A DNA stretch of 42,093 nucleotides, from positions 1 to 42,093 of the forward strand of contig CALLBR010000018.1 in NCBI GenBank assembly GCA_937998865.1, written 5' to 3'. The position numbers were made by a program, and so were the translations under genes. The stretch comes from an uncultured bacterium. GTDB taxonomy: Bacteria > Nitrospirota > Thermodesulfovibrionia > Thermodesulfovibrionales > Thermodesulfovibrionaceae. The notes beneath the pieces were generated by a model. The model did no database searches, was not told the origin of the DNA, and saw only the letters and a list, made by a program, of their open reading frames with translations. Shown here one piece after another: positions 5,797 to 33,189 of the stretch; positions within the stretch are counted from its first letter, which is position 1, and the number at the start of each line of letters is the position of its first letter.

Positions 5797-6555
5797 TCAC
5801 TTACATTCTGAGGTTTCAAAGAGAGGACAAAATCCCTCTTCCTTTTCCTTAATAGCATTTTTTGCCAGAAGGTATCCTTTAATGTTTTCTGCTCCAATAA
5901 TAAATTTTTTCTCAGAACCTTCGTTACAGTATAAAACAGGTACTGACTTTATGTTTAAAGCCTTCAAGAGTCCTGAAATTTTATCTGCTTCTATTTTGTG
6001 AACTGGGATTGACATTTGCTCACAAAACTGGATTACCTCTTTGCAGTGAGGGCAGTCTTTTGAGTAGACAAGAACATAATTTTGTTTGGCTGAGGGGAAG
6101 TCTGATATGTGAGGATTTACCAAATAGGTTATTAAAAATAGAGATGCAAAACAAAAAAAAGCAAAGACAAGCTCCTTACGGCCCATTACAAACCTTAAAA
6201 GGGAAGACAAAAGAAGAATTGCAAACACCACTAAGCAAAAAATACAAAATTCCCTTATAACGAAAGCTTGAAAGGATAAAAGATATCCCTCAGTAGACAA
6301 AGCAGATATCAAAATTAAAGAGTGTAAGAGATCAAACTTTTTGGTAAGAGAAAAAAACAATAAAGTGGCAAATAATCCCATACCAATTAAAAGTAAGAGA
6401 ATATCTCCGCCTTTTACAAAACTTTCTACAATCCTGCATCCCTCTGTTTGACAAATGCTTTTTCCGAAAAATTTAAGCATAAATTCAAGAAAGACAAGCA
6501 CAAAACCAATCAAATAGAGAAAAGTTAGAATTTTTGGCATTTTAAGGAATTTCAT
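5797..6555 (-). CDS. VKOR-family disulfide oxidase with thioredoxin-like tail
   Basis: Integral membrane protein of 252 residues in the bacterial vitamin K epoxide reductase family, which replaces DsbB as the quinone-linked oxidant for protein disulfide formation. It has four to five helices, the shuttle cysteine pair in the first loop (ICQTEGC, Cys35 and Cys40) and the active CxxC at a helix end (FCIFC, Cys104 and Cys107). A C-terminal thioredoxin/glutaredoxin-like domain carries CPHC (Cys168, Cys171) and SVPVLY with a likely cis-proline. This fusion lets the electron path from substrate to quinone run in one chain. The start at 6555 is supported by a -10 box 6 bases away. Confidence 0.88.
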   Translation of the reverse strand: MKFLKMPKILTFLYLIGFVLVFLEFMLKFFGKSICQTEGCRIVESFVKGGDILLLLIGMGLFATLLFFSLTKKFDLLHSLILISALSTEGYLLSFQAFVIREFCIFCLVVFAILLLSSLLRFVMGRKELVFAFFCFASLFLITYLVNPHISDFPSAKQNYVLVYSKDCPHCKEVIQFCEQMSIPVHKIEADKISGLLKALNIKSVPVLYCNEGSEKKFIIGAENIKGYLLAKNAIKEKEEGFCPLFETSECK

Positions 6556-7782: not shown

Positions 7783-8064
7783 ATGAAGAGATTATCATTA
7801 ATCACTCTTTTAGTGAGCCTTGTTTTTTTATTTACCTCTACAAGTGGATCAAATATGAATATCTATCAAGGATCAAATTCCTGCAGCATGCCTTTTGTAA
7901 AGGATATTTTATATGCATCTTCAGTAAATTGTTCTGAATGGAGTATTCAACTAAATGGTTGTTACGAGAGAGTTTGCTGTTGTGACAGCAGTGGTAGGCA
8001 TTTCTGTGAAAGATGTTGTCCAGATAAGGAGGGAAAATGTATTCCCTCAAAAGTTAGCTGTTAA
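7783..8064 (+). CDS. small secreted protein with 11 cysteines
   Basis: A 93-residue protein with a signal peptide (Lys-Arg, then LITLLVSLVFLF) and a mature part of about 70 residues holding 11 Cys at 34, 50, 60, 65, 66, 67, 75, 78, 79, 86 and 93. Clusters include RVCCCD and RCCPDKEGKC. No family is recognised. The spacing suggests a knot of disulfides or a metal-binding peptide outside the cytoplasm. The gene has a strong extended -10, a clear AAGGAGG, and a likely terminator after it, so it looks independently and well expressed. The nearby VKOR protein could supply disulfides. The odd number of Cys leaves one free for a metal, a partner or dimer formation. Function unknown. Confidence 0.7.
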   Translation: MKRLSLITLLVSLVFLFTSTSGSNMNIYQGSNSCSMPFVKDILYASSVNCSEWSIQLNGCYERVCCCDSSGRHFCERCCPDKEGKCIPSKVSC

Positions 8065-8211: not shown

Positions 8212-8892
8212 TTGAATATGATATTGTCACCAGTCATAGAGGTTCTATTAAGACAGATTTATTTCACCGGCGTTCAAGCTTTATCAATTGTCATTTTCTC
8301 AGGATTATTCATAGGTCTTATAATAGTCCTTCAAATTATGTCTATAACTGGTTCAGGTTCAAGTAGCATAATGGGTAAGATACTTTTGGTTATTGTTTTA
8401 AAAGAAATAGGTCCACTTTTTACAGCCCTTATAATTCTTACGAGAAGTGGTTCTGCAATAGTTACAGAACTTGCTACTATGAAATTAGGTAGAGAAATTT
8501 ATTATATTGAAGCTATGGGTATTAAGCCAGAAGTATATCTTATAAAACCTCGTCTATACGGGGTTACCTTTTCTGCTTTGGTGCTATGTGTTTATTTTCA
8601 GCTTGCAGCCCTCTTTGGGGGAGTCTTTATAGCAAGTTTTATGACAGGTGTCTCCTTTTCAGAAAACATGAATGCTATTTTTGATCAATTTTATCTGAAA
8701 GATGTGGCAATAGCTTTTTTGAAATCTTTGATGTTCGGTTTTACTGTCTCTTTAATTTGTATATGGCACGGTATTTCTGTGAAAAAAAGTACCACTGAGA
8801 TTCCTCAGAGAACTACAAAAGCTCTAACAGGAGGAATATTCTCTATTTTTTTAATTGATGTTATAATTGACTTCATTACAAAAATGATTTAA
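8212..8892 (+). CDS. mlaE: MlaE-type MCE transporter permease
   Basis: Inner-membrane permease of the MlaE/YrbE family, part of an MCE system that moves phospholipids between membranes. The core matches the family: LLRQIYFTGVQALSIVIFSG at the start, then KEIGPLFTALIILTRSGSAI and the EIYYIEAMGI coupling region. At 226 residues it lacks roughly the first 30 residues of typical members. The annotated TTG at 8212 and the ATG at 8218 are both possible starts. The ATG has a TATGAT box about 13 bases upstream. The next gene starts directly after its stop, so they are translationally coupled. Confidence 0.88.
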   Translation: MNMILSPVIEVLLRQIYFTGVQALSIVIFSGLFIGLIIVLQIMSITGSGSSSIMGKILLVIVLKEIGPLFTALIILTRSGSAIVTELATMKLGREIYYIEAMGIKPEVYLIKPRLYGVTFSALVLCVYFQLAALFGGVFIASFMTGVSFSENMNAIFDQFYLKDVAIAFLKSLMFGFTVSLICIWHGISVKKSTTEIPQRTTKALTGGIFSIFLIDVIIDFITKMI

Positions 8893-9504
8893 ATGATTAG
8901 TGCTATAGGAATAACAGGAGATTTAATCAGAGATAAGATGAATTTTAACATTCAAAAAGGACAGAAGGCATTTTTTGTTTTTGAAGAAGAAGCACAGGGA
9001 GAGGAATTTTTGGATTTGCTAATAGGGATGAAAAGTCCAAAGAGCGGAGAGCTCTTTTTTATGGGCCAAAATCTTAGACATATAAGGAAAGACAAACTTT
9101 TTGAAATAAGAAAAAAAATTGCCATTGTTTTTAAAACAGGCGGTTTGATAAATAACATAAGAACATTAGAAAATATTCTTCTTCCAGCTCTCTATCATAG
9201 AATTGCAGATAAAGAAAATCTATATAGAGAAGCAATAAAACTCTTAGAAACCTTTGAATTCAAAGGAGACTACATGTGTAAGATAGAGGAACTAACTAAT
9301 TTAGAGAGGAGAATTATAGCTTTAGTGAGAGGTTTACTAATTAAACCAGAGATTATGATTTTAGAATATCCCTTTCAGGGAATTAGTGAAGAGCAAAGGG
9401 AATGGCTTTTGAGTAAGATTGAAAAAATAAGCAAGAATCTAACTCTTATCAGTATTTTAAGCTCCCAGAGGGAATATCATTTTTTTAAAGGCAAGGTGAA
9501 TTGA
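8893..9504 (+). CDS. MlaF-like ABC subunit lacking all nucleotide-binding motifs
   Basis: A 203-residue protein in the mlaF position and with the length profile of an ABC ATPase domain. However, the Walker A region reads FEEEAQGEEF (about 30-39) in place of GxSGxGKST. The Q-loop Gln is Lys (VFKTGG, about 79-84). The signature reads ELTNLERR in place of LSGGQ. Walker B ends ILEYP in place of LDEP (Glu158, Tyr159), and the switch His is gone (ILSSQ). The flanking ABC framework (KSPKSGELFFMGQNL, TLENILLPALYH, RGLLIKPEIMIL) is preserved, as is the reading frame. It probably binds MlaE structurally but cannot hydrolyse ATP in the usual way. It abuts mlaE and is 3 bases from mlaD. Confidence 0.82.
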   Translation: MISAIGITGDLIRDKMNFNIQKGQKAFFVFEEEAQGEEFLDLLIGMKSPKSGELFFMGQNLRHIRKDKLFEIRKKIAIVFKTGGLINNIRTLENILLPALYHRIADKENLYREAIKLLETFEFKGDYMCKIEELTNLERRIIALVRGLLIKPEIMILEYPFQGISEEQREWLLSKIEKISKNLTLISILSSQREYHFFKGKVN

Positions 9505-9507
9505 AAA

Positions 9508-10395
9508 ATGGAAATCAAACAAAAAGATCCACGCTTTATATTTCTTAGAGGAAAAATTGTTATTTTTATTATAGTTGCCTTAGCAGGTGCTTTAGCATTT
9601 CTCTATTTTGCAGGAAAGCAAAGAGGTTTATTTACAAAAACAGAGAATTTTTATTGTGTTGTTTCTAAGGCTACGGGAGTTTATACAGGTATGTCCATTA
9701 GATTATCAGGCTTTAAAATAGGAAGAGTCCAGAATATGGAACTAATGGATAATGGGTTTGTAAGAATAACTCTTTCTGTTGAGGATAAACACACTAAATG
9801 GTTTAGAGAAGGAACAGTGGCAATTCTTACTAAGGAGGGATTCATAGGTGAATCCTACATCGAAATCTTACCAGGACAAGGTGCCCTCATAAAACCTAAT
9901 CAAACAATTAAATTTTTTAGGCAATCAGGCATTGAAGAGATTGCTGCAGAGCTTAAAGGTGAAATATCTGAGATTTTGAAAGGAATAAAAGAGACTATAA
10001 ACTATGTTAATGAGCCTCAAGGTGACATCAAGAAAAGCATTCATAATATAGAGAAAATATCCAGAAATTTAATAGAAACAACCAATAAACTTAATCTCTT
10101 ACTTGAGGATATGAAGGATAAAACTCCTTCTATCCTTGCTAAATCAGAAAATACAATTGAAGAACTCACGGAACTTATTAAATCCCTTCAAAATGTTGCC
10201 AAGCAGTTAAATGCATTAACCACAAATTTCAATGAGATAACAAAGAAGGATTTAACTTTAATAATTGAGCAAACAAAAAGAAGCATGGAAGATTTGGATG
10301 AAATCCTAAAGAGCATAAAGGGACTTTGGCCCATAAGAGAGGGGATCAAAAAGCATGAGATAAAACCTTTGGAGGCAGATAGTTATGAGAAATAG
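9508..10395 (+). CDS. mlaD: MlaD-type MCE-domain protein
   Basis: Membrane-anchored periplasmic lipid-binding subunit of 295 residues. A single N-terminal helix (about 16-34, IVIFIIVALAGALAFLYF) is followed by one MCE domain at about 45-125, with SGFKIGRVQNMEL and TKEGFIGESYIEILPG as landmarks. A long helical, coiled-coil tail follows, with many Ile, Leu, Lys and Glu heptads. MCE proteins form hexameric rings with a hydrophobic pore, and long tails can extend the channel across the periplasm. It is in one operon with mlaE and the mlaF-like gene, and the next gene overlaps it by 11 bases. Confidence 0.9.
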   Translation: MEIKQKDPRFIFLRGKIVIFIIVALAGALAFLYFAGKQRGLFTKTENFYCVVSKATGVYTGMSIRLSGFKIGRVQNMELMDNGFVRITLSVEDKHTKWFREGTVAILTKEGFIGESYIEILPGQGALIKPNQTIKFFRQSGIEEIAAELKGEISEILKGIKETINYVNEPQGDIKKSIHNIEKISRNLIETTNKLNLLLEDMKDKTPSILAKSENTIEELTELIKSLQNVAKQLNALTTNFNEITKKDLTLIIEQTKRSMEDLDEILKSIKGLWPIREGIKKHEIKPLEADSYEK

Positions 10396-11221
10396 AAAAA
10401 AATTGCTTTTTTTATTTCTTTTGTTTTTACTTCTAATCCTTCAAGGATGCTACAGAGCACCAATGGAAGAACCTTATAGAGTAAAGGAAATTGAGAGTTT
10501 AATAAAAAGAGCAAAGGTAGCCTCTGAAAAAGGCAATTTTAAAATGGCACTGAGTCTTTATGAAGAAGCTTTGAAAAAATCTCGCATAATTCAAGATGAT
10601 AATTCTACTGTAGTGATTCTTCTTAGCTTATCAAGGATTTATACTTCCTTAGATAAAATTGATTACGCTAAAAAATTTCTTAGTTCTGCCGAGGAGTTAT
10701 CAAAGAAAACATATCTACCAGAAGGTCTATCTGAAGAAATAATTTTTGAAAAGGCAAGAATAGGATTTTTACTAAATGAAAACTCTGAAGCTTTATTACA
10801 TAAATTGATTTATTCAGAATCTCCATACATGAGAATAAAATCTTTAAATCTTTTAGCACGATTCAAGATGAGAGAAGGGGCTAATGAAGAAGCTGAAGAG
10901 CTTCTTAATAAAGCATTGTCTATGAATAATGAAATTTCAAAAATTGAGCAAGCTAATACTCTTAGGCTTCTTGGAGAACTTAATACGAAAAAGAATAAAA
11001 ATAAAGCATTGATTTATTTATTAAGAGCTTTGTCAATTGATAAAGAGCTTGCCTTGCCAGAAAAAATAGCCTTAGATATGGAGATTCTTGCAAGACTTTA
11101 CAGAGATATGGAGGATAAAGAAAAGGCAAAGGATTATTTTTTAAGAGCTTTTGAAATATGGAAGTGCCTTGAAAGAGAGGAAAATCAGATAAGAATCATG
11201 AGAGAGTTAGAAATTTTATGA
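10385..11221 (+). CDS. TPR-repeat lipoprotein of the MCE operon
   Basis: A 278-residue lipoprotein: a basic N-terminus, a long hydrophobic stretch of Leu and Phe, and the lipobox LQGC with Cys22. The mature part consists of tetratricopeptide-like helical repeats (for example AKVASEKGNFKMALSLYEEA, AEELLNKALSMNNEISK, KAKDYFLRAFEIWKCLE). Its start overlaps mlaD by 11 bases, so it is part of the MCE operon. It may be the outer-membrane or periplasmic partner of the transporter, in the place taken elsewhere by MlaA, MlaC or an ABC-auxiliary lipoprotein. It is not homologous to those by eye, so that role is inference. Confidence 0.75.
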   Translation: MRNRKKLLFLFLLFLLLILQGCYRAPMEEPYRVKEIESLIKRAKVASEKGNFKMALSLYEEALKKSRIIQDDNSTVVILLSLSRIYTSLDKIDYAKKFLSSAEELSKKTYLPEGLSEEIIFEKARIGFLLNENSEALLHKLIYSESPYMRIKSLNLLARFKMREGANEEAEELLNKALSMNNEISKIEQANTLRLLGELNTKKNKNKALIYLLRALSIDKELALPEKIALDMEILARLYRDMEDKEKAKDYFLRAFEIWKCLEREENQIRIMRELEIL

Positions 11222-30933: not shown

Positions 30934-32520
30934 ATGAAAAGGCAAATTGAAATTTATGATACCACACTTAGAGACGGCGCTCAAGCTGAGGATATTTCCT
31001 TTTCTTTAGATGATAAGATAAAAATAACTGAACAACTCGATGAGCTTGGCCTTCACTATATTGAAGGCGGCTGGCCTGGTTCTAATCCCAAAGATGCAGA
31101 TTATTTCAAGAAAGTAAAGAAACTTAAACTTAAAAATGCAAAAATTGTTGCTTTTGGTAGTACCCATAGGCCAAAAGTAAAAGTCAATAATGATCATAAT
31201 ATTAAAACTTTGATTGCTGCTGAAACAGAGATTATTACAATCTTTGGCAAGAGCTGGGATTTTCATGTCACAGAGGCACTTAAGATTTCTCTAGAAGAAA
31301 ATCTTGATCTGATTTTTAACACTGTAAATTATCTTAAAAAATATGTAAATAAGGTTTTTTTTGATGCTGAACATTTTTTTGATGGTTTTAAGGATAATCC
31401 CGATTATGCTATTAAATGTTTGAAGGCAGCAGAACAGGCAGGAGCAGACTGTATTGTTCTATGTGATACCAACGGAGGCACACTCCCTCAAGAGGTAGAA
31501 CTAATTGTAAAAAAAGTAAGGAATACTATTAAAAGCCCTATAGGGATGCATGCTCATAATGATTCTGATTGTGCTGTAGCCAATACGATTATAGCAGTTT
31601 TAAATGGTGCTGTCCATGTTCAGGGAACAATGAATGGTTTTGGTGAGAGATGCGGAAATGCTAATCTATGTTCAGTCATCCCTAATTTACAGATTAAATT
31701 AGGCTATAGTTGTATAGATGAAGCTAAATTAAGAAATCTTACTGAAGTTTCAAAATTCGTTTATGAGATCGCAAACTTATATCCCTTTAAAAGACAACCT
31801 TTTGTAGGAGAAAGCGCCTTTGCCCATAAAGGTGGAGTTCATGTAAGTGCTATAAGAAAAAGACCAGAAACATATGAACATATTAGACCTGAATTGGTGG
31901 GAAACAAGCAGAGAGTACTTGTATCTGATCTTGCTGGGAAAAGCAATATTCTCAAAAAAGCAGAGGAATTTGGTATTCCACTTGATCCGAACTCTCCAGA
32001 TGTGCAGGCTATAGTAGATAACATAAAACACCTTGAAAATGAAGGATTTCAGTTTGAGGGAGCAGATGCTTCTCTTGAACTATTATTTAGAAAGACCCTA
32101 GGCATAAGAAGAAAATTTTTTGACTTAATCGGCTTTAGAGTCATTGACGAAAAGAGAAAGGGCGATGAACCCACATTAAGTGAGGCAACAATTATGGTCA
32201 AAGTTGGTAAAAATGTGGAACACACAGCTGCCACAGGGAATGGTCCAGTAAATGCTCTTGATAATGCCTTAAGAAAGGCTTTAGAGCGTTTCTATCCTGA
32301 ACTAAAGAAAGTTAAATTAAAAGATTACAAAGTAAGAGTTGTAAATTCAGGCAAGGGAACAGCTTCTAAGGTAAGAGTTTTGATTGAATCGGGAGATGAA
32401 ATGGATAATTGGAGTACTGTGGGAGTCTCTGAAAATATAATTGAAGCATCCTGGCAAGCAATAGTAGATGGAATTGAATATAAGCTTCAAAAAGAAAAGT
32501 TAAAAAAAGGAGAAATTTAA
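30934..32520 (+). CDS. cimA: (R)-citramalate synthase
   Basis: Condenses acetyl-CoA and pyruvate to (R)-citramalate, the threonine-independent entry to isoleucine. The 528-residue protein belongs to the isopropylmalate-synthase superfamily: DTTLRDGAQ (9-17) at the start of the barrel, the metal-binding HAHND (206-210), and a C-terminal LeuA-type regulatory domain. The pattern [15 protein letters not shown] is characteristic of the citramalate type as opposed to LeuA. The presence of this pathway is common in anaerobes. The stop overlaps the hisI start (TAATG). Confidence 0.93.
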
Positions 32521-32846
32521 TGTTTGAATATTTAAAATTTGATGAAAAAGGGCTAATACCGGCAGTTGTCCAAGAAATCGATACAAAAGAAGTATTAATG
32601 GTTGCTTACATGGATAGAGAAGCCTTAAGGAGGACCTTAAAGACAGGATATACTCACTTTTGGTCCAGGTCAAGACAAAAATATTGGAAAAAGGGTGAAA
32701 CCTCCGGAAATGTTCAAGAAGTAAAAAGTATTTATTATGATTGTGATGCTGATTGCCTCCTTGTAATGGTAAAGCAGCATGGCAAAGGAGCTTGCCACAC
32801 TGGTAACAGAACATGTTTCTTTAGAGAAATAAAAGATGAGGGATAA
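32520..32846 (+). CDS. hisI: phosphoribosyl-AMP cyclohydrolase
   Basis: Opens the purine ring of phosphoribosyl-AMP in histidine synthesis. The 108 residues contain [19 protein letters not shown] and the metal ligands YDCDADC (Asp74, Cys75, Asp76, Asp78) with [11 protein letters not shown] (Cys92, Cys99). It lacks a fused HisE domain. It shares one base with cimA, so translation is coupled. Confidence 0.95.
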
Positions 32847-32847
32847 T

Positions 32848-33189
32848 ATGAATTGTATTTTCTGCAAAATAATCCAAGGAGATATTCCATCGCAAAAAGT
32901 TTATGAAGATGATTTAGTAATGGCTTTTCATGATATTTCGCCACAAGCACCTGTACATATTTTAATAATTCCTAAGGAGCACTATTCTAATATTCTTGAA
33001 GTTGAAGAATCCCAAAAGGAATTAATAGGTCATATCTTTATGATTGCAAAGAAGATTGCAAGGGAAATGGGAATTCATGAAAAAGGTTTCAGAATAGTTA
33101 TGAACTGTAACAGAGATGGTGGACAAACAGTTTTTCATCTTCATTTTCATTTGTTAGCAGGCAGACAAATGCATTGGCCTCCGGGATAG
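32848..33189 (+). CDS. HIT-family protein (histidine triad)
   Basis: A 113-residue HIT protein of the HINT type that hydrolyses nucleoside phosphoramidates such as AMP-lysine; cytoplasmic. CIFCKII at the start holds the zinc Cys pair, and the triad is QTVFHLHFHLLAGR (His97, His99, His101). An ATG at 32836 would add four residues, but the ATG at 32848 has a GAGGG at 5-base spacing and gives the usual HIT start. It is 1 base from hisI. Confidence 0.92.
   Translation: MNCIFCKIIQGDIPSQKVYEDDLVMAFHDISPQAPVHILIIPKEHYSNILEVEESQKELIGHIFMIAKKIAREMGIHEKGFRIVMNCNRDGGQTVFHLHFHLLAGRQMHWPPG

Follow-up and report, generated by a model that had tools for sequence, protein, structure and literature searches.

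A putative trans-phylum branch of MCE transport systems with a degenerate MlaF-like subunit

The operon and its surroundings

The window, i.e. the whole 42,093-nucleotide stretch analysed here, is contig C18 of a 1.75 Mb genome that is 99.9% complete. It carries on the forward strand a compact operon whose genes code, in order, for an MlaE-like permease, an MlaF-like subunit devoid of catalytic motifs (hereafter pseudo-MlaF), a protein with a single MCE domain, and a TPR lipoprotein, with gaps of 0, 3 and -11 bases between consecutive genes. An earlier note on this DNA had recognized an MCE operon; the operon is real but longer than described, as the lipoprotein gene forms its fourth member.

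The permease gene (8212-8892, + strand) encodes 226 residues from a TTG codon, with an ATG codon at position 8218, and its product was assigned to the MlaE family, and within it to the clade that accompanies pseudo-ATPases, on the basis of a PF02405 match (1.3e-51) spanning residues 13-220 and of the trees described below. A domain search of this permease gave no match to a STAS domain, and its N-terminal interfacial helix region is short in the window's genus. The MCE gene (9508-10395, + strand; PF02470, 9.9e-12) encodes a transmembrane helix, one MCE domain, about 130 helical residues, and a conserved C-terminal WPIREGI motif. Its predicted structure has a pLDDT of 68, the helical part being floppy; in a Foldseek search the top fold matches of this model were Mce1 subunits and MlaD, and the best full-length matches were Mce1 subunits. 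An MlaE permease thus adjoins an MlaD-domain protein, as in MCE/Mla transporters, but the place of the catalytic nucleotide-binding domain (NBD) that adjoins the permease in such transporters is occupied by a pseudo-NBD. No second, active NBD was seen inside the operon among the loci read.

The last gene (10385-11221, + strand) encodes a TPR protein (PF13424, 1.2e-19) whose lipobox, LQGC, is followed by a residue other than Asp at position +2, so that by the Lol rule the lipoprotein would reside at the outer membrane. A TPR lipoprotein is likewise the fourth gene at the Nitrospirota, Ignavibacteriales and Bacteroidetes loci, and none was seen at the Pseudobdellovibrionaceae locus L080. Immediately 5' of the operon (7783-8064, + strand) lies a gene for a 93-residue secreted, Cys-rich protein, also found in genome G009 (L038). 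Farther upstream, on the opposite strand (5797-6555), a gene product appears by eye to combine a vitamin K epoxide reductase-like membrane domain with a following thioredoxin-like CPHC motif.

An MlaF fold without catalytic motifs

The pseudo-MlaF gene (8893-9504, + strand) is an uninterrupted open reading frame of 203 codons that opens with ATG and is flanked by the permease and MCE genes. Its product matches the ABC ATPase profile PF00005 weakly (1.4e-7), over profile positions 27-135, a span that does not cover the P-loop. The closest sequences in the PDB are nevertheless MlaF proteins, which came first in a phmmer search, and an AlphaFold2 model of high confidence (pLDDT 90.6, from an input with 36 homologues) finds its top structural match in E. 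coli MlaF of the MlaFEDB complex (6xbd_I; VIA: Z 25.8, rmsd 1.8, 203 residues). By its model, the protein therefore has the NBD fold of an MlaF-type ABC ATPase.

The catalytic motifs are another matter, as alignment with a canonical MlaF of the same genome makes clear. At the Walker A position (8980-9003, + strand; consensus GxxGxGKS), GRSGGGKS is replaced by FEEEAQGE. In the Q-loop, which together with the stretch that follows it occupies 9127-9198 (+ strand), VFQGGALF has become VFKTGGLI, with Lys in place of Gln; the following stretch, GGLxxN...EN..LP..YH, forms the putative permease-docking side. The signature LSGGM reads LTNLE (9292-9306, + strand), the Walker B motif IILFDEP reads IMILEYP (9352-9372, + strand), with the catalytic Glu changed to Tyr, and the switch segment SHEI reads SQRE (9463-9474, + strand), with the His changed to Gln. 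Walker A, Walker B with its Glu, the Q-loop Gln, the signature and the switch His are thus all missing.

These results agree with the earlier note's claim that five motifs are replaced in one MlaF-like subunit lying between an intact permease gene and an intact MCE gene, the integrity of both neighbours being evident from the Pfam matches given above. The note had further stated that the subunit keeps the frame, framework and length of MlaF. The intact reading frame and the MlaF fold bear out the first two; the length does not hold, because the protein has 203 residues against about 260 and lacks the C-terminal extension of MlaF.

Canonical MlaF copies in the same genome

Two more mlaE genes are present in this genome, each adjoining a motif-intact mlaF, one on contig C4, together with mlaD, and the other on contig C14, where the mlaE-mlaF pair lies at 31940-33099 (L018, L032). 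The second, intact mlaF that the earlier note proposed to look for hence exists in two copies. Only one unpaired MCE gene was found in the genome, an orphan at C15:6422 (L035), on a different contig.

The intact copies bear on the main rival to the interpretation developed below, namely that the transporter is energised in trans, both NBDs being exchanged together; that another ATPase might energise it was one of the two alternatives raised in the earlier note. A canonical MlaF dimer would then displace the pseudo-MlaF pair during transport, and pseudo-MlaF would serve as a resting placeholder or an assembly factor. Besides the two intact genes, the mycobacterial ATPase MceG, which is unlinked and serves several Mce permeases, offers a precedent for such a scheme (PMC9947336). 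Each canonical MlaF, however, adjoins an MlaE of its own.

In an ABC site, the Walker A and B motifs of one NBD face the signature contributed by its partner. Because each site requires these elements from different NBDs, a mixed dimer of pseudo-MlaF and canonical MlaF would lack any complete ATP site, which also weighs against energisation in trans. A heterodimer with one working site was ruled out on these grounds, the Walker side and the signature side both being lost in the pseudo-subunit. As the operon has a single gene each for permease and NBD, the self-assembled complex would be symmetric and equally without an intact ATP site.

Conservation and selection among relatives

Sixty relatives (61 genomes with that of the window) were searched with the pseudo-ATPase and, separately, with the permease. 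At E<1e-40, the permease type and the pseudo-ATPase were both present in 19 of the 61 genomes and both absent from the others, so that no genome had one alone; in G017 and G029 the pseudo-ATPase was recognized by profile only. Among the genomes with neither are four near-complete genus mates (G001, G004, G008 and G012). In every orthologue read, the catalytic residues are replaced and the operon order is unchanged, and losses of the same kind occur in the single-contig genomes G002, G010, G013 and G026 as well as in many others.

Nei-Gojobori estimates of dN/dS for pseudo-MlaF range from 0.12 to 0.34 across 13 pairs, compared with 0.08-0.21 for MlaE and 0.09-0.18 for the MCE gene; for seven of the pseudo-MlaF pairs, the bootstrap 95% upper limits lie at 0.26-0.62. 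Purifying selection thus acts on pseudo-MlaF, a little less tightly than on its neighbours. The alignment of orthologues and the selection analysis recommended in the earlier note thus gave concordant answers, with losses conserved across families, and neither a high dN/dS nor, in the close relatives read, a frameshift was found. The note's view that a pseudo-ATPase stands in MlaF's place by something other than random decay is upheld by these values and by the retention of the losses across families.

The closest relative, G009, has two copies of the operon. The first looks intact and is divided between contigs C10 and C78; the second (contig C34, 33500-40500; L154) is decayed, with the permease and TPR lipoprotein genes remaining, the pseudo-MlaF gene gone and the MCE gene truncated.

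A pseudogene reading was rejected on the dN/dS of 0.12-0.34 and the upper limits below 0.63, and a sequencing or assembly error on the recurrence of the same state in several single-contig genomes. That the window's gene is dying or is an artefact of assembly is accordingly an explanation to which we attach almost no weight: it could draw on the slightly higher dN/dS of pseudo-MlaF relative to its neighbours and on the one decayed operon copy of G009, but the selection test refutes it for the gene as a whole, and the same state recurs in several families and in genomes of a single contig.

Distribution and extent of the motif losses

When named genomes were scanned with the ATPase alignment, degenerate NBDs were found in Nitrospirota and, unexpectedly, in Ignavibacteriales, Bacteroidetes, Pseudobdellovibrionaceae and Polyangiaceae. 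So that members would not be picked by their ATPase, searches were also led by a profile of the partner permeases, and the clade's permease lineage was again found to span Nitrospirota, Ignavibacteriota/Bacteroidota, Bdellovibrionota and Myxococcota. Clade permeases occur in 56 of 296 Nitrospirota genomes (at least 240 bits), in 12 of 296 genomes from the phylum of the Ignavibacteriales genome, in 21 of 97 from that of the Pseudobdellovibrionaceae genome, and in 8 of 78 from that of the Polyangiaceae genome (at least 190 bits). These permease-led searches rule out an oddity of one genus; they suggest instead an MCE branch that spans several phyla and has a non-catalytic NBD.

Trees support the same division. 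In MlaE trees of 43, 85 and 97 rows, clade members and rows with intact partners are separated by one branch (support 100/100), and the MlaF tree shows the same split (100/98); both are unrooted, with intact rows drawn from the same searches and not from all phyla. The placement of the long rows L185 and L194 is unsure, and L115 was left out of the rebuilt MlaE tree.

None of the 78 partner ATPases read next to clade permeases has all 11 motif residues. By comparison, the 28 NBDs that adjoin non-clade permeases keep all 11, save for one signature Gly in one protein. Of the 78 clade members, 14 retain the catalytic Glu, 17 the Q-loop Gln, 6 the switch His and only 1 a complete SGG, and even the proteins nearest to intact (L251, L252/L253, L140/L143 and L166) have several losses each. 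The 23 Thermodesulfovibrionia rows have neither Walker A Gly (two positions scored) nor the Q-loop Gln, signature Gly or catalytic Glu. GK[ST] together with the Walker B Asp persists in 31 of 78, mostly in Bdellovibrionota and other Nitrospirota. Orthologues with intact Walker motifs, which the earlier note had named as grounds for abandoning its reading, therefore exist only in part: Walker A is retained in some relatives, and the full set in none of the 78. The losses are graded, the hydrolysis motifs (the signature, the His and mostly the Glu) having gone throughout the clade and the ATP-binding motifs in some lineages only. Loss of Walker A probably came later, and on more than one occasion.

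Some loci depart from the common pattern. In L186-L191, from the phylum of the Polyangiaceae genome, Walker A, Walker B (VVEG.GDF) and the switch are barely recognizable, and a clade permease adjoins. The operon appears split in the Polyangiaceae genome G306 (L082, L184) and in G081 (L113, L255), each of which has a degenerate MlaF-like NBD with no adjoining permease and a clade-type permease with no adjoining NBD.

With GK[ST] and the Walker B Asp retained in 31 of 78 members, independence from nucleotides need not extend to the entire clade. The same retention favours a reading in which pseudo-MlaF, or those relatives that keep Walker A, would bind a nucleotide or other ligand without hydrolysing it and would gate the conduit in the manner of a sensor, much as the degenerate sites of other ABC proteins retain ATP as a scaffold (PMC7756269). 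In the window, however, the P-loop is acidic (FEEEAQGE) and has no Walker residue, so that gating by ATP cannot be a function common to the clade unless it was lost later. Ligand gating strikes us as rather improbable.

Conservation of the putative docking surfaces

Conservation in the clade is highest at surfaces other than the active site. The best-conserved columns of the clade's NBDs are not the catalytic ones; they are those of GGLxxN...N..LP..YH, just past the Q-loop. The first Asn of this stretch is present in 78 of 78 clade rows, whereas canonical MlaF has Ser there in 93%; farther along the stretch, the 78 rows have the L in 99%, the P in 94% and the H in 91%. The coupling-helix segment of the permease (8467-8562, + strand; ELATMKLGREIYYIEAMGIKPEVYLIKPRLYG) has E, M, E, G, P and R residues that vary little or not at all among 80 clade rows; M90, E95, G103, P113 and R114 are invariant in these 80 rows and conserved above the level of 25 canonical rows. 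The window carries every hallmark by which the clade is recognized, i.e. an MlaE with an EVPQ/EIPQ-type C terminus, the coupling-helix Glu and a degenerate NBD, and its coupling helix remains recognizably canonical.

In MlaFEDB, the contact between MlaE and MlaF is mediated by the coupling helix (PMC7790496), which is engaged upon ATP-driven dimerisation of MlaF (PMC7784689). Set against this background, the clade's pattern suggests that conservation moved to the permease-docking side and that selection retained docking while the chemistry was lost. For energisation in trans, the findings point both ways: a coupling helix that is still recognizably canonical might accept a canonical MlaF, but the clade-specific docking-side residues in both NBD and permease suggest a dedicated pair, and on balance we consider this rival unlikely. 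Clade-specific docking residues speak also against a regulator or decoy, i.e. a pseudo-MlaF that occupies the MlaE of a canonical MlaFED or pairs with canonical MlaF. A fold common to the two proteins would allow such a role; the strict linkage and co-occurrence of pseudo-MlaF with the permease and MCE genes of its own operon make it very improbable.

A proposed mechanism and its implications

The explanation we prefer, in which our confidence is evenly divided, is that pseudo-MlaF serves as a structural NBD, incapable of hydrolysis, within an MCE conduit for lipids, through which flux is most likely ATP-independent. An MlaE dimer would sit in the inner membrane, with the MCE needle in the periplasm and the TPR lipoprotein probably at the outer membrane. 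The ATPase subunit would have been turned into a structural pseudo-NBD, incapable of the usual ATP binding or of hydrolysis, that docks on the MlaE coupling helix, stabilises the complex, and keeps the permease in a state accessible to lipids or gates it there. The presumed lipid cargo would move down its concentration gradient, or be driven by something besides the system's own NBD.

It is tempting to extend this scheme to the clade. A somewhat more tentative proposal is that an old, trans-phylum branch of ABC-type MCE systems abandoned hydrolysis, kept the NBD pair as a docking scaffold, and operates as a bridge-like conduit with gradient-driven or other non-ATP flux, and that ATP binding was lost too in Thermodesulfovibrionales and part of Myxococcota.

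The direction of lipid movement by Mla is disputed, and there is no agreed role for ATP in MCE systems. A natural clade with a dead motor, the rest of which is under selection, offers a ready-made test of what NBDs do besides hydrolysis. Loss of the motifs combined with faithful preservation of the subunit suggests that lipid movement by this branch, or its control, does not require its own motor to hydrolyse ATP, and the assembly would be a homodimeric ABC transporter in which no ATP site is intact. In the open-licence PMC literature, no published account of a degenerate or pseudo MlaF, of a pseudo-ATPase MCE system or of a Bdellovibrio MlaF was found, which is not proof of absence. A survey of Mla over all bacterial phyla identified MlaF by synteny and called its annotation uncertain, in passages that make no mention of motif loss (PMC10665443). 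Annotation by synteny or fold conceals the loss of NBD motifs.

Comparison with known systems

With MlaFEDB, the operon shares the MlaE permease family, the MCE (MlaD) family, an NBD of MlaF fold, and gene adjacency. It differs in that its NBD lacks both the catalytic motifs and the C-terminal extension of MlaF, in that there is no MlaB gene, and in that the MCE protein is long, with a helical tail, and is accompanied by a TPR lipoprotein. The Mpc system of Brucella abortus (MpcEFDA), for which a periplasm-spanning bridge has been proposed, has a similar layout of permease, NBD, single-MCE needle and, last, a gene for an outer-membrane lipoprotein (PMC12436622). However, MpcE bears a STAS domain, for which the window's MlaE gave no match, and MpcA is PqiC-like, whereas the window's last gene encodes a TPR lipoprotein. 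MpcF is described as an MlaF homologue in a well-conserved ABC transporter, and no loss is mentioned (PMC12436622).

The degenerate-site ABC exporters (TM287/288, TmrAB and ABCC1) also show conserved loss of catalytic residues and an altered signature in one site (PMC7756269). In those exporters, two different NBDs are combined and the other site is catalytic, whereas here each operon has one NBD gene, degenerate in every clade member inspected, so that with a single NBD and a single permease gene neither site would be functional; ATP binding, too, appears to have been lost in the window's lineage.

The Mce1/Mce4 systems of mycobacteria resemble the operon in that each MCE protein combines a single MCE domain with a long helical tail, and differ in their heterohexameric MCE assembly, their two permeases and their ATPase MceG, which is intact, encoded at an unlinked locus, and both drives and stabilises the complexes (PMC9947336). 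The transporter becomes unstable when MceG is missing or its Walker B residues are lost (PMC9947336), so that in this nearest studied case stability linked to the ATPase is the rule, which counts against the explanation preferred here. The opposite precedent comes from PqiABC and LetAB. Like the window's system, these are MCE conduits whose membrane protein, PqiA or LetA, has no ATPase domain (PMC12436622), and Pqi has an outer-membrane lipoprotein partner. They differ in having PqiA or LetA in place of the MlaE found in the window, several MCE domains per chain, and no relic of an NBD. Such ATPase-free MCE systems provide the precedent for a conduit that would operate without the use of ATP by an NBD of its own.
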